Of a DNA stretch of 64,000 bases, positions 287 to 6,256 are shown in pieces. Below the pieces are notes generated by a model. The model saw only the letters and a program-made list of their open reading frames with translations, was not told the origin of the DNA and did not search any database. This DNA comes from an uncultured Thermogutta sp. (GTDB lineage Bacteria; Planctomycetota; Planctomycetia; Pirellulales; Thermoguttaceae): assembly GCA_937128505.1 (NCBI GenBank), contig CAKZMM010000027.1:1-64000 (forward strand). The letters are read 5' to 3'. Every line of letters starts with the position of its first letter. Within the stretch, counting starts at the first letter, position 1. A program made the position numbers and the translations under genes.

Positions 287-3200
287 GTGCAGCAAATTCG
301 TTGGCCTGGAACATTCTTTGGTCCGCCGGACCTGGTGGAGCTCCTTCGTCACCGAGCGACTTTCCAACCGGACGACATCGCTTTCACCTTCCTGGTGGAT
401 GGCGAAAATGAGCAGGTTCACGTGAGCAATGCGGAATTGGACCGGCAAGCTCGCGCCATTGGCGGCTGGCTTCAGTCCATGAACTTGGCCGGCGAAAGGG
501 CCCTGCTCCTCTATCCTCCGGGATTGGAATTTATTGCCGCCTTTTTCGGCTGCGTCTATGCCGGTGTGGTCGCTGTGCCGGTTTATCCACCGCGTCGCAA
601 CCGGTCGCTCCTGCGGATTGAAGCCATCTCGGATGATGCCCAGGCCAAAGTGGCTTTGACCACCGATGCAGTGCTCCGGCGAGTAGAATCGCTGATTGAC
701 GACACTCCGCACCTGAAGCAATTGCGCTGGCTGGCTACCTGCCATGTCCCTCCTGGAATGGAGGATCGATGGCAAAAGCCGCCGATTGATTCCGAGACCT
801 TAGCCTTTCTTCAATACACCTCCGGGTCCACGGGCATACCGAAAGGCGTGATGCTCAATCACGGCAATCTCCTCCATAATTCCGCCCTGATTGCTCATGT
901 GTTTGAGCACACACGTTCCGGGCTCGGGGTTTTTTGGCTTCCCAGCTATCATGACATGGGGTTGATTGGGGGCATCCTCCAGCCGCTTTACGTGGGTCGG
1001 CCGAACATCCTCATGTCGCCGGTCGCTTTTCTGCAAAAACCGTTTCGTTGGCTTTCGGCGATCACGCGATTTGGAGCCACCACCAGTGGCGGCCCCAATT
1101 TCGCTTATGAGCTTTGCGTCCAAAAGATCTCCCCGGCACAACGGGCCCAACTCGACCTCAGCAGCTGGCAAGTGGCGTTCAATGGTGCAGAACCGGTACG
1201 GGAAGAGACTTTGGAGCGATTCGCGGAGGCCTTTGAGCCGTATGGCTTTCGTTGGGAGGCCTTTTTCCCTTGCTACGGACTGGCCGAGGCGACCCTCATT
1301 GTAACGGGGGGATATGCCAAAAAGGCCCCGGTGGTCCGCTGGTTTGAGGCAGAGACCCTCAGTCAAGGGGAAGCGATCGTCACTCGGCCCCGGCAACCCG
1401 GTGCTCGCCCGCTTGTCGGCTGTGGGCAATGTTTGCCGGACCAACGGGTCATCATCGTAAATCCTGAGACGTGCACTCCCTGTCCCGACGGAGTGGTGGG
1501 GGAAATTTGGGTCCAAGGGCCCAGTGTGGCTATGGGGTATTGGCAACGCCCGGAGGACACGCAGCACACTTTCCGGGCCTATTTAGCCACCACGGGCGAG
1601 GGCCCGTTTTTGCGGACGGGCGACCTGGGTTTTATCCGCGATGGGGAGTTGTTTGTGACTGGGCGAATCAAGGATGTGATCATCCTCCGCGGAGTAAACT
1701 TTTATCCGCAGGATATTGAGCTGACCGTGCAGAATGCCCACCCGTGGTTGCGGGCCGATGCCGGTGCGGCTTTTGCGGTCGAAATGGAGGACGAGCAGCG
1801 GCTGGTGGTGGTACACGAGCTGGAACGGCGCGTGAAAGGGGCGCTGGAGCCGGTCTTCCAAGCCATTCGTCGAGCCATAAATGAAGAACACGACCTTGCG
1901 GTCGATACTATCGTCCTGTTGAAACCCGGAAGTATCCCGAAAACCACCAGCAATAAGATTCAACGCCATGCGTGCCGGGCCGCGTTTTTAAGCGGAACTT
2001 TAAATATGGTGGCCTCGTGGAGCCGGCGGGATAAGACCGAAAAGATCCCCGCTTCGGATGAGGTTTTTGCCGAGCAGGAGGCCGTTTCTTCAGTGGGGCG
2101 GGTTGCCGCCTCAGGTCCGGTTGCGCCCGCGGCTGGAGCCTCAGGAAATCTCAAGACTGTCCTCGTCTCCAGGAAGGGGCCCAATATCGGCGGACCGAGT
2201 AACTTACCGACAATCACCACTTCCCGGGCCGAGCATGGAGCGATTGCGGCGGAGCCACGGGCTGCGGCCGCCGACGGCGATGATGGCAACGGGCATTCGC
2301 GCCGTCCCTCTTCCGCCAGGCAGTCATCCCCCGCAAAGGCCGGATCGCCGGAGCCTGCGAACGGCGATTTCGTGCCGCCCGATGCGAGTGCAGTCCCACC
2401 GTCGGTTGAGCAACCCTCGGAAGCTCAAAACAGGGCGGCCAATGGAAAGACTACCATCGAGCTTGTCCTGGAACAGGTCCGGCGGGTGGCCAAAGATCGG
2501 GCCGTAAACCTCACGCTCGACCAATCGATCTCCGAGCTGGGTCTTGATTCCTTAGAGAGAATGGAAATCATTGCAGGACTTCAGGAACAGCTCGGTGGCC
2601 GGATTCCGGAGGAGGTCCTCCCGCAACTCGACACCTGCCGCCAAGTGGTGGAGGCCGTAGAACGCTACTTGCGGAAATCACCGGGCTCAGCAGGACCGGA
2701 ATTCTCTCAGATTGGACCGGAACAATATAGAATCGACCAATTCCCGGAATCCGTCAAGTTACAACAGCGGCTGCTATCGCTGCGGAAAGCGGGCCTGGAT
2801 CGGTGGCAGTATCCCGTCTTGGACGGCGGGCCATTCCCGCAAGTTGAGTGGCAGGGACGTTCCCTGGTCCATTGGGCCAGTTTCAACTATCTGGGCCTTT
2901 CCACAAATCCGGTGGTACTTCAAGCGGCTCAGGAAGCCTTGGAACGCTGGGGTGTGGGAGTTTCCGCCAGCCGCTTGACCGCTGGCCAGCGGCCGATCCA
3001 TGCCCAGTTGGAAGAGGCGCTAGCCGCCTTGGTGGGAGCGGAATCCGCCTTAGTATTTGCCTGCGAGTATTCGGCAGTAAGCTCCACGATCCACCAACTT
3101 TTGGGTCCCCAAGATACATTCTTGTATCAGCGAGGAATTGCTCCCGGATTCCTCCACGGTGCCCAGCAGGCCGGAGCCCAGCAGGAATGTTTCCCCCGGG

Positions 3201-3964
3201 GCGATTGGAAGGCCTTGGAGGAATGGCTGATTCGGTATCGGCCCCGCAGCCGCCGGATTGTCGTGGCCATCGAGGGGTTATCTCCCGTGGACGGCTCGAT
3301 CGCCGAGCTCCCCCCGCTGAGCGAGTTATGCCGTCGCTACCAGGCGCTTTTGGTGGTCGATGAGTCCCATAGTGTGGGGGTGCTTGGGGATTGCGGGCGC
3401 GGCCTCCGCGAATATTGGCACAGCGATAGTGGGTCGATCGATTTGTGTATCGGGTCGCTGGGGCATGCACTTGGATCGGCCGGTGGCTTTGTGGCCGGCT
3501 GTCGCAGTTTTATCCAGCTGCTTCGCTCGAGCAGTCCCGCCATGACCCAGGCTACGGCATTGGCTCCTTCGCTTTCGGCAGCGGCCTTGGCAGCCATTCA
3601 GCAACTGACGAACCATCCGGAGCTTATCCAGAAGCTTCGTGAGCGAAGCATCCTTCTGCGCGGGCTTCTGCAATCGGCGGGCATTCCTATTTGTGGAGAT
3701 CCGCGAGCACCCGCAGTGCCGGTCATAACGGGCAGCTCGGCGGCGGCCATAAGTCTTGCACGGCGGCTTCAGCAACAGGGATTTTTCGTTCTGCCCACAA
3801 TCTACCCCAGCGTGGAGGAACGCCAAGCCCGAATTCGGCTCATGTGCTCGGCAGCCCACGATTTAGACCAGGTTCGCCAGCTTGCCCAAGCAATCATCGA
3901 GGCTTGGCCCAGCCTGAAGCGACCGGCGCCCCTACCGCAGGGTGCATCCCCGCGAGTTTCCTAG
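287..3964 (+). CDS. Fatty acyl-AMP ligase - acyl carrier protein - AONS/SPT-like fusion protein
   Basis: About 1225 residues in three parts. Residues 1-590 are an ANL adenylating domain of the fatty-acyl-AMP ligase (FAAL) type; the P-loop-like motif YTSGSTGIPKG begins near residue 177. After a Pro/Ala/Ser-rich linker comes an acyl carrier protein with the phosphopantetheine site LGLDSLE (Ser755). Residues ~840-1225 have the fold of 8-amino-7-oxononanoate synthase/serine palmitoyltransferase, with the Asp-Glu-Ser-His motif near 1025. The expected job of such a fusion is to activate a fatty acid, load it on the ACP and condense it with an amino acid. However, the Schiff-base lysine of the usual G-T-L-G-K-A-x-G motif is His here (GSLGHALGSAGG, His1060), and the usual D-x-x-N-H-A-S segment is also lost. 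Decarboxylative condensation is therefore doubtful. GTG at 287 was chosen because GGAGAAG lies 7 bases upstream; an in-frame TTG at 260 lacks one. Confidence 0.88.
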   Translation: MQQIRWPGTFFGPPDLVELLRHRATFQPDDIAFTFLVDGENEQVHVSNAELDRQARAIGGWLQSMNLAGERALLLYPPGLEFIAAFFGCVYAGVVAVPVYPPRRNRSLLRIEAISDDAQAKVALTTDAVLRRVESLIDDTPHLKQLRWLATCHVPPGMEDRWQKPPIDSETLAFLQYTSGSTGIPKGVMLNHGNLLHNSALIAHVFEHTRSGLGVFWLPSYHDMGLIGGILQPLYVGRPNILMSPVAFLQKPFRWLSAITRFGATTSGGPNFAYELCVQKISPAQRAQLDLSSWQVAFNGAEPVREETLERFAEAFEPYGFRWEAFFPCYGLAEATLIVTGGYAKKAPVVRWFEAETLSQGEAIVTRPRQPGARPLVGCGQCLPDQRVIIVNPETCTPCPDGVVGEIWVQGPSVAMGYWQRPEDTQHTFRAYLATTGEGPFLRTGDLGFIRDGELFVTGRIKDVIILRGVNFYPQDIELTVQNAHPWLRADAGAAFAVEMEDEQRLVVVHELERRVKGALEPVFQAIRRAINEEHDLAVDTIVLLKPGSIPKTTSNKIQRHACRAAFLSGTLNMVASWSRRDKTEKIPASDEVFAEQEAVSSVGRVAASGPVAPAAGASGNLKTVLVSRKGPNIGGPSNLPTITTSRAEHGAIAAEPRAAAADGDDGNGHSRRPSSARQSSPAKAGSPEPANGDFVPPDASAVPPSVEQPSEAQNRAANGKTTIELVLEQVRRVAKDRAVNLTLDQSISELGLDSLERMEIIAGLQEQLGGRIPEEVLPQLDTCRQVVEAVERYLRKSPGSAGPEFSQIGPEQYRIDQFPESVKLQQRLLSLRKAGLDRWQYPVLDGGPFPQVEWQGRSLVHWASFNYLGLSTNPVVLQAAQEALERWGVGVSASRLTAGQRPIHAQLEEALAALVGAESALVFACEYSAVSSTIHQLLGPQDTFLYQRGIAPGFLHGAQQAGAQQECFPRGDWKALEEWLIRYRPRSRRIVVAIEGLSPVDGSIAELPPLSELCRRYQALLVVDESHSVGVLGDCGRGLREYWHSDSGSIDLCIGSLGHALGSAGGFVAGCRSFIQLLRSSSPAMTQATALAPSLSAAALAAIQQLTNHPELIQKLRERSILLRGLLQSAGIPICGDPRAPAVPVITGSSAAAISLARRLQQQGFFVLPTIYPSVEERQARIRLMCSAAHDLDQVRQLAQAIIEAWPSLKRPAPLPQGASPRVS

Positions 3965-4355: not shown

Positions 4356-5342
4356 TCACGTTTCTATCGGCGTATTTTGCCACCGCGAGCCCTGCCAAGA
4401 ATCGCGCCGCTTTAACTCCGCTTCAATCCCCCGAAGAACGGCAGACTTTTCATGCGACCATTCCGAAGCCAAAAGAAACTCTCGCGGTGCATCCCCCATC
4501 AGTCGCTCGATAACGCAATGCGGGGGCAGCACCTCCAATAAATCGGCCACTAAACCGATGTATTCATCGCGCTCAAGGAGGCGAATGCTTCCCTTGTGCC
4601 ACATCTCGGCCAATGGGGTGTCCACCAAGACGTGCAAATGGTGAATTTTCACCGAGTGGATGGGTAGCCCACCCAGCACTTGCGCGGTGCGCAACACGTC
4701 GGCCCGTGTTTCGCCGGGAATCCCCAAAATCAAATGACAGCCGACCGCTAGCCCCCGATCGGCTGCCCGGCGGATCGCATCCTGGGCCGTCCGCCAATTG
4801 TGTCCACGACCGAGCCAACTCAAGGATCGATCATGGATCGTTTGTACCCCGAGTTCCAATTCGATCCAAATCTTCCGCGTATATTGAGCGAGGACCTCGA
4901 GGATGGACTCGGGGACCCAATCCGGCCGAGTTCCCACGGAAATCCCCACTACGCTCGGCTGACTTGCGACAAGCTCCAAAAGTTCCGCCAATCGTTCCGG
5001 CTGAGTGTGAGTATTGGTGGCCGGTTGAAAATATGCCACAAAGGCCTCGGCCTTTCGTTTGGCTTGGAGCGTCGTGATTCCGCTCTTGAGTTGCTCCAGC
5101 AGCGACTTACCGGCTTGCGCCAACCGCCGACTGGGTGCAGAGGCTTTCAAGTTGCAAAAAATGCAGCCTTGCGTGCCGATGGTGCCGTCCACATTCGGGC
5201 AACTATGCCCGACATCGAGGCTGATTTTCCATGTCTTGCAGCCGAAACGTTGCCGGTAGAAAAAATCGAGGGAGAAGTAACGAAGCCCCGCTGCACGCCA
5301 AGCCGGCACCGGTAAGCATTCAGGGCTTTTCCTTGACGCCAT
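4356..5342 (-). CDS. TIGR01212-type radical SAM protein (YhcC-like)
   Basis: 328 residues, close to the E. coli YhcC length. The N-terminal part carries the family's cluster signature: GHSCPN near the start of the barrel, then QGCIFCN, so the cysteines are spaced C-x(12)-C-x2-C (wider than the classical CxxxCxxC) as is typical of this subfamily. Further family hallmarks are SVGTRPDWV, ELGVQT and the glycine-rich HLILGIPGET. It should bind a [4Fe-4S] cluster and S-adenosylmethionine in the cytoplasm. The substrate of the family is not firmly known. It is a stand-alone gene, convergent with the acyl-AMP ligase fusion and divergent from the FHA gene. Family assignment is firm; function is not. 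Confidence 0.88.
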   Translation of the reverse strand: MASRKSPECLPVPAWRAAGLRYFSLDFFYRQRFGCKTWKISLDVGHSCPNVDGTIGTQGCIFCNLKASAPSRRLAQAGKSLLEQLKSGITTLQAKRKAEAFVAYFQPATNTHTQPERLAELLELVASQPSVVGISVGTRPDWVPESILEVLAQYTRKIWIELELGVQTIHDRSLSWLGRGHNWRTAQDAIRRAADRGLAVGCHLILGIPGETRADVLRTAQVLGGLPIHSVKIHHLHVLVDTPLAEMWHKGSIRLLERDEYIGLVADLLEVLPPHCVIERLMGDAPREFLLASEWSHEKSAVLRGIEAELKRRDSWQGSRWQNTPIET

Positions 5343-5749: not shown

Positions 5750-6256
5750 ATGTTCGGCGAATTGATCCCCGTGGGCGGCGGTGATCCGATTCCACTTTTG
5801 AAAAAGAATCTCCTCGTAGGACGACGCGAGAGTTGCGATATCGTCTTGCGGTTTCCGAACGTTTCCGCACACCACTGTGAACTGACTTGCGCGGGCGGCT
5901 ACTGGTACGTACGGGACCTCGACAGCCGTAACGGCGTGAAAGTCAACGGAAACCGTGTGACGGAGAAGCGGCTCGATCCGGGCGACATCCTGGCAATTGC
6001 TACCCATAAGTACCAAGTGCATTATTCCCCGGCAGAACTAGGGGCAACCGGTCCGCCCCCTCCGGATCCGGTCGAGGCGGATATCCTGGGAAAATCGCTT
6101 TTAGAACGTGCTGGTCTAGACCGCGGGTTGGAGCGAAAAGTTCGATTCCACGCGCCAAAGCCGCAAGTCGAGGAGGATCTGGGGCCTCCTCCGCGTAGCA
6201 AACCACCGACAGAGGGTGAAACGGCTGCCGAGGACGATGAAATTCAACTCGGCTAA
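5750..6256 (+). CDS. FHA domain protein
   Basis: 168 residues. Residues ~1-95 form a forkhead-associated domain, a phosphothreonine-binding beta-sandwich. The diagnostic blocks are all present: GRRESCDIVL, then VSAHHCEL, then DLDSRNGVKVNG. The remaining ~70 residues are a charged, proline-rich, probably disordered tail. Such proteins recruit Ser/Thr-kinase-phosphorylated partners, and planctomycetes have many Hanks-type kinases; none is encoded nearby, so the partner is unknown. No signal peptide or membrane segment is visible, so it is probably cytoplasmic. The ATG follows a purine-rich GAGGGGGTG stretch that can serve as ribosome binding site. It is monocistronic as far as the window shows. 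Confidence 0.85.
   Translation: MFGELIPVGGGDPIPLLKKNLLVGRRESCDIVLRFPNVSAHHCELTCAGGYWYVRDLDSRNGVKVNGNRVTEKRLDPGDILAIATHKYQVHYSPAELGATGPPPPDPVEADILGKSLLERAGLDRGLERKVRFHAPKPQVEEDLGPPPRSKPPTEGETAAEDDEIQLG

Follow-up and report, generated by a model that had tools for sequence, protein, structure and literature searches.

A Thermogutta FAAL-ACP-AONS fusion protein whose AONS-fold domain lacks the PLP lysine

What is the function of a fatty-acid-loading fusion protein whose terminal domain has the fold of a PLP enzyme but lacks its Schiff-base lysine? The question is raised by a gene in the window, as we call the whole 64,000-nucleotide stretch of DNA from an uncultured Thermogutta sp. that was analysed here. 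The gene joins a fatty acyl-AMP ligase (FAAL), an acyl carrier protein (ACP) and a domain of the alpha-oxoamine synthase (AONS) fold (Table 1), an architecture already listed as A-CP-PLP2 in a 2013 survey, with Blastopirellula marina A3ZWL3 as the example (PMC3870968). The earlier note on this locus had proposed that the third domain is either a pseudoenzyme or an enzyme with different chemistry, and we followed up both proposals by comparing sequences, models and genomes.

Domains of the fusion and its PLP pocket

The GTG start codon is preceded by GGAGAAG, a plausible ribosome site. Pfam assigned AMP-binding to residues 21-419, the FAAL-type C-terminal domain to residues 463-575, PP-binding to residues 726-791 and Aminotran_1_2 to residues 860-1203, and NCBIfam matched the protein to FAAL families and to the BioF/KBL/SPT/ALAS families, the latter all under the AONS cut-offs. 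The adenylating and carrier parts carry their motifs, as the earlier note had said: A3 as YTSGSTGIPKG (815-847, residue 177), the A10 Lys in SNKIQR (1949-1966, residues 555-560), and the phosphopantetheine Ser in GLDSLE. With these motifs intact, the FAAL would adenylate a fatty acid and load it onto the fused ACP. Throughout the window's genus, represented by three genomes (window, L056 and L057), Asn precedes the A10 Lys, where the Lys-bearing homologues compared have Gly (SGKIQR).

The third domain was predicted with confidence by AlphaFold2 (pLDDT 91.2, pTM 0.88), and the model matched structures of the AONS family (SPT, KBL, AONS and ALAS) with Z scores of 47-52, in agreement with the original fold assignment. 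Its closest solved relatives are E. coli KBL (1fc4; E 9e-54, Z 51.6) and S. multivorum SPT (3a2b; E 2.5e-50, Z 51.8), both active PLP enzymes in which, unlike in the window domain, Lys, stacking His and phenol-contacting Ser are present. SPTLC1 (PDB 7k0i chain A) gave Z 47.2; KBL and bacterial SPT outscore LCB1 as matches in both sequence and fold.

Alignment to 1fc4 places His1060 at the Schiff-base position, as first noticed, and a neighbouring Lys does not take its place, since Lys is absent from the segment GSLGHALGSAGGFVAG. The D-x-x-N-H-A-S segment, which had been described as gone, is indeed absent as a motif but has been substituted rather than deleted, and the position of its stacking His is occupied by Ala952. 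Asp1025, His1028, Ser1029, Arg1184 and Asn867 are kept. The roles given to the pocket residues (Asp1025 at the pyridine N, the stacking His, the phenol-contacting Ser, Arg1184 at the substrate carboxylate) are those of KBL, AONS and SPT structures. Because Lys, stacking His and phenol-contacting Ser are all missing, we strongly infer that the domain performs no normal internal-aldimine chemistry; judged from the sequence, canonical PLP catalysis has very probably been lost. Since Asp1025, His1028 and Arg1184 are retained, non-covalent binding of PLP or of an amino acid is still conceivable.

Table 1. Coordinates of the fusion gene, its domains and pocket segments, and of the candidate partner
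Feature	Position	Strand	Details
FAAL-ACP-AONS fusion gene	287..3964	+	1225 aa, GTG start, stop included; full-length relatives in family
Fatty acyl-AMP ligase domain, motifs intact	329..2011	+	PDB 7r7e match, E 7e-189; NCBIfam FAAL models
Acyl carrier domain	2456..2671	+	PF00550, E 3.5e-9; phosphopantetheine Ser755 in GLDSLE, 2540-2557
AONS-fold domain, degenerate PLP site	2750..3901	+	Residues 822-1205
QRGIAPG replacing the PLP-stacking D-x-x-[NA]-H-[AN]-S loop	3128..3148	+	Residues 948-954
Ser999-Pro1000 replacing Tyr-Ser	3281..3286	+	Pro1000 at the PLP-/phenol-contacting Ser of GV[YF]SMDG (GVFSMDG in KBL)
DESHS, kept	3359..3373	+	Asp1025, His1028; Ser1027 for Ala
His1060 codon at the Schiff-base Lys position	3464..3466	+	Alignment to E. 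coli KBL 1fc4: GTLGK there, GSLGH here
ARIRLMCSAAH, kept	3827..3859	+	Substrate-carboxylate Arg1184; His1191
Stand-alone Lys-bearing AONS (locus L004/L260), window's genome	G000:C113:33164-34444		Candidate partner

Distribution of the fusion and of lysine loss

Named matches in the GTDB scan put the relatives of the window's assembly in Thermoguttaceae. The fusion type was matched in 347 of 396 Pirellulales genomes, and the AONS region in 57 of 61 sampled genomes of the family, where almost all of the frames are about 1100-1280 aa long. We read 122 distinct AONS domains from the family and order directly, and 117 of them have the lysine. The five Lys-less domains are those of the window (His), of two same-genus genomes (Ala in both), of a paralogue in a sister genus (Tyr) and of a marine Pirellulaceae genome (Thr). 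This sister genus carries the Tyr form as a second copy and also retains a Lys-bearing fusion; none was found in the three genomes of the window's genus. Lysine in close relatives, which the earlier note had named as the sign of a local loss, is therefore the rule at family and order level. Within the genus, however, it is missing from every one of the three genomes, which makes the loss a lineage trait. We also searched genomes of the family (119), order (396) and class (397) with profiles, which a distant independent loss scoring like an active copy could escape; this yielded no further Lys-less members and left a clear score gap.

We ruled out an error of sequencing or assembly, and equally a mutation confined to one strain, as having practically no likelihood, because four relatives in separate assemblies also lack the lysine, each with surrounding active-site changes. 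Chemistry relying on the histidine was likewise rejected: His is not conserved at the site, and its replacement by Ala (twice), Tyr or Thr in the other Lys-less homologues makes such chemistry unlikely.

According to the survey that listed the architecture, embedded domains can have Thr or Val where the Lys would be; its named examples stand in the Aminotran_3 table (PMC3870968). Its A-CP-PLP2 fusions have the same domain order and type, and the example given is a planctomycete, but whereas Lys, Tyr999 and a DxxxHNS loop are kept in nearly all fusions of this type read here, none of the three survives in the window's lineage. Both the fusion architecture and this kind of pseudo-AONS event are already known; what is new is its place here.

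Other homologous AONS domains were also seen. Some Pirellulaceae (G133, G149, G190, G202, G249 and others) have a second one in an open frame of about 2570-2620 aa, for example at G133:C10:764892-766034, and a larger multidomain version may exist. In many Pirellulales an AONS domain is also encoded by a further ORF of about 500-650 aa (G216:C61, G254:C43, G015:C4, G291:C88 and others); it is Lys-bearing in those read, and the ORF leaves no room for a FAAL. Two Streptomyces loci (L120, L124) encode Lys-bearing AONS domains that share about 39-40% identity with that of the window. No other match outside the planctomycetes comes nearly as close, and horizontal transfer is possible.

Constraint on the AONS-fold domain and its history

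Pairs of Lys-less fusions from the window's genus are 80-92% identical in the FAAL and 39-59% identical in the AONS domain, a difference (AONS minus FAAL) of -33 to -43. For Lys-bearing pairs the same difference has a mean of +0.5 (sd 4.6, range -11 to +12, n=300 pairs), and we therefore conclude that the AONS domain has been specifically accelerated in this genus. At the 84 positions invariant among Lys-bearing AONS domains, the Lys-less domains keep 42-55 residues (49 in the window), and many of those lost are PLP-contact sites. The FAAL keeps 137-138 of its 138 invariants (137 in the window), except in the Pirellulaceae copy, which keeps 128.

The Lys-less AONS domain contains no stops and 0-2 gap columns over 384, and its omega is 0.14-0.37, of which only the sign is safe since dS is near saturation. 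Neutral evolution was simulated from the G028 AONS coding sequence in 500 runs at several divergences. Both descendants remained open in 0/500 runs at every divergence tried, and neutral change at d >= 1 left at most about 20% identity and some 18 stops, in contrast to the 39-59% identity observed within the genus. On the evidence of these coding sequences, the data show that the domain has been kept as a folded unit despite the loss of Lys. With the lysine and most other catalytic invariants lost and the fold and frame kept, the proposal of a pseudoenzyme is well supported.

The fast divergence and the lost invariants could also be those of a vestigial domain that is decaying and is retained only through its fusion behind a useful FAAL-ACP. 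Neutral decay is disfavoured by the intact frame, the near absence of indels, the simulations and the identity retained within the genus, and a C-terminal truncation would have been an easy way to shed the domain; we regard this explanation as improbable.

Part of the change is shared among the Lys-less copies. Residue 999 is Ser in all five and Tyr in all 117 Lys-bearing domains, and residue 1027 is Ser or Thr in all five and Ala (in one case Cys) in the Lys-bearing ones. The GTDB scan used two patterns, one of which demanded Ser/Thr at 1027, so for the Pirellulaceae copy the signature at 1027 owes something to how that copy was selected; residue 999 is unaffected. His1028, Ser1029, Arg1184 and His1191 are retained in all five, and Asp1025 is Glu in two. 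Together, Ser999 and Ser/Thr1027 look like specific remodelling rather than plain decay.

Such remodelling might mean that the domain is still an enzyme, its pocket binding PLP non-covalently or another ligand and acting on the acyl thioester, for instance by hydrolysis or by transfer to a different acceptor. The exclusive Ser999, the four residues retained throughout and the purifying selection on the domain would all fit altered chemistry of this kind, but the former Lys position varies freely, Asp1025 has given way to Glu in two copies, the domain has evolved at a strongly accelerated rate and the 1027 signature is biased for one copy. We therefore consider it unlikely, if somewhat less so than a vestigial domain.

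In a tree of AONS domains (LCB1 left out), the window domain groups with planctomycete FAAL-ACP-AONS fusions. The four Thermoguttaceae Lys-less copies form one clade (98/91) and all five fall together weakly (78), whereas the FAAL tree does not group them. Given these conflicting trees, and AU tests that reject neither alternative (p 0.30 and 0.23, with long branches involved), one to three origins of the Lys loss are possible. It is a speculative idea that the five copies belong to a single ancient subfamily with Ser999 as its mark, its pocket rebuilt for a new ligand or the domain serving a lipid alpha-oxoamine synthase as an obligate half without catalysis of its own. If true, this would be a bacterial SPTLC1 counterpart that brings along domains for activating and carrying the fatty acid.

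Candidate partners and proposed role

Taken together, we favour, at a probability of roughly 60%, an acyl-ACP loading enzyme with a retained, folded pseudo-AONS domain that acts as a non-catalytic partner or scaffold. The pseudo-AONS domain would be a structural or docking partner, by analogy with SPTLC1 in eukaryotic SPT, and a Lys-bearing AONS would take over the ACP-bound acyl chain in trans. Besides its one such fusion, the window's assembly encodes a second FAAL-ACP protein, separate from it, and has two AONS genes that stand alone. This second FAAL-ACP protein, which has no AONS domain, is found in all three genomes of the genus (L002, L058, L059), its FAAL about 50% identical to that of the fusion.

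Of the two stand-alone AONS genes, the one on contig C113 is the candidate user of the acyl chain. Among PDB entries it matches cysteate-C-fatty acyltransferase best (E 4.6e-86), followed by SPT, and it falls below the bioF cut-off. The housekeeping BioF (L003, L060, L061), which passes that cut-off, is unlikely as the lipid partner. Strong orthologues of the C113 AONS occur in 8 of about 119 family genomes, including all four Thermoguttaceae carriers of a Lys-less fusion; the other four family genomes carry it without one. The chance of this co-occurrence would be about 1e-5 if genomes were independent, but three of the four carriers are one genus (two lineages at most), so we treat it as a lead and not as proof. 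The C113-type AONS has no neighbours common to the window's genome and others, and beside the fusions we found only scattered synteny and no operon partner. That the C113 AONS is the specific in-trans user of the fusion's acyl chain is a tentative suggestion.

Downstream of the fusion in the window lie an MnmL/YtqA-type radical SAM gene (4356-5342, minus strand) and an FHA-domain gene (5750-6256, plus strand). This order is kept in both same-genus genomes; a functional link is not evident.

AONS enzymes are dimers with active sites at the interface. A specific form of the preferred reading is that the pseudo-AONS domain is the SPTLC1-like regulatory half of an obligate heterodimer and makes the active site complete in a Lys-bearing partner, namely the second fusion in G001 or the stand-alone AONS in the window's genus. 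Every Lys-less carrier does encode a further Lys-bearing AONS (in G001 the active fusion and a C187 AONS; in the window's genus the C113-type AONS; in G291, the Pirellulaceae genome with the Thr copy, a 507-aa ORF), and human LCB1 is a precedent for a Lys-less AONS-fold subunit, in eukaryotic SPT (PMC3794620). The likeness is one of an AONS fold without the Schiff-base Lys, but SPTLC1/LCB1 belongs to another lineage and to an established, membrane-bound heterodimer, whereas the window domain has candidate partners only. Moreover, there is no operon or fusion link, and extra Lys-bearing AONS also occur in genomes with ordinary fusions, which leaves an obligate heterodimer a possible but doubtful form.

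For the preferred loading-enzyme reading, a second parallel is the AasR-AcpR-SPT system of Rhodobacteria, in which SPT, a separate protein, receives its acyl chains from a dedicated acyl-ACP synthetase with an ACP of its own (PMC9386255). A dedicated synthetase and ACP are present in the window's genome too; it also has a separate SPT/cysteate-acyltransferase-like AONS, which they may supply. The Rhodobacterial components are encoded by separate genes, whereas in the window the synthetase and carrier form one protein with a Lys-less AONS, and the AONS that acts would be encoded at another place in the genome.

FAAL-ACP-AONS, for which we found no characterised product in the literature searched, is close to a core gene of the Pirellulales. 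Not every such fusion gene should be annotated as an active synthase. Where a lineage has lost only the PLP chemistry, with loader and fold preserved, nature has in effect run the experiment: the prediction is that acyl-ACP is consumed in trans, and the lineage offers a bacterial model for the rise of a pseudo-AONS subunit such as SPTLC1.
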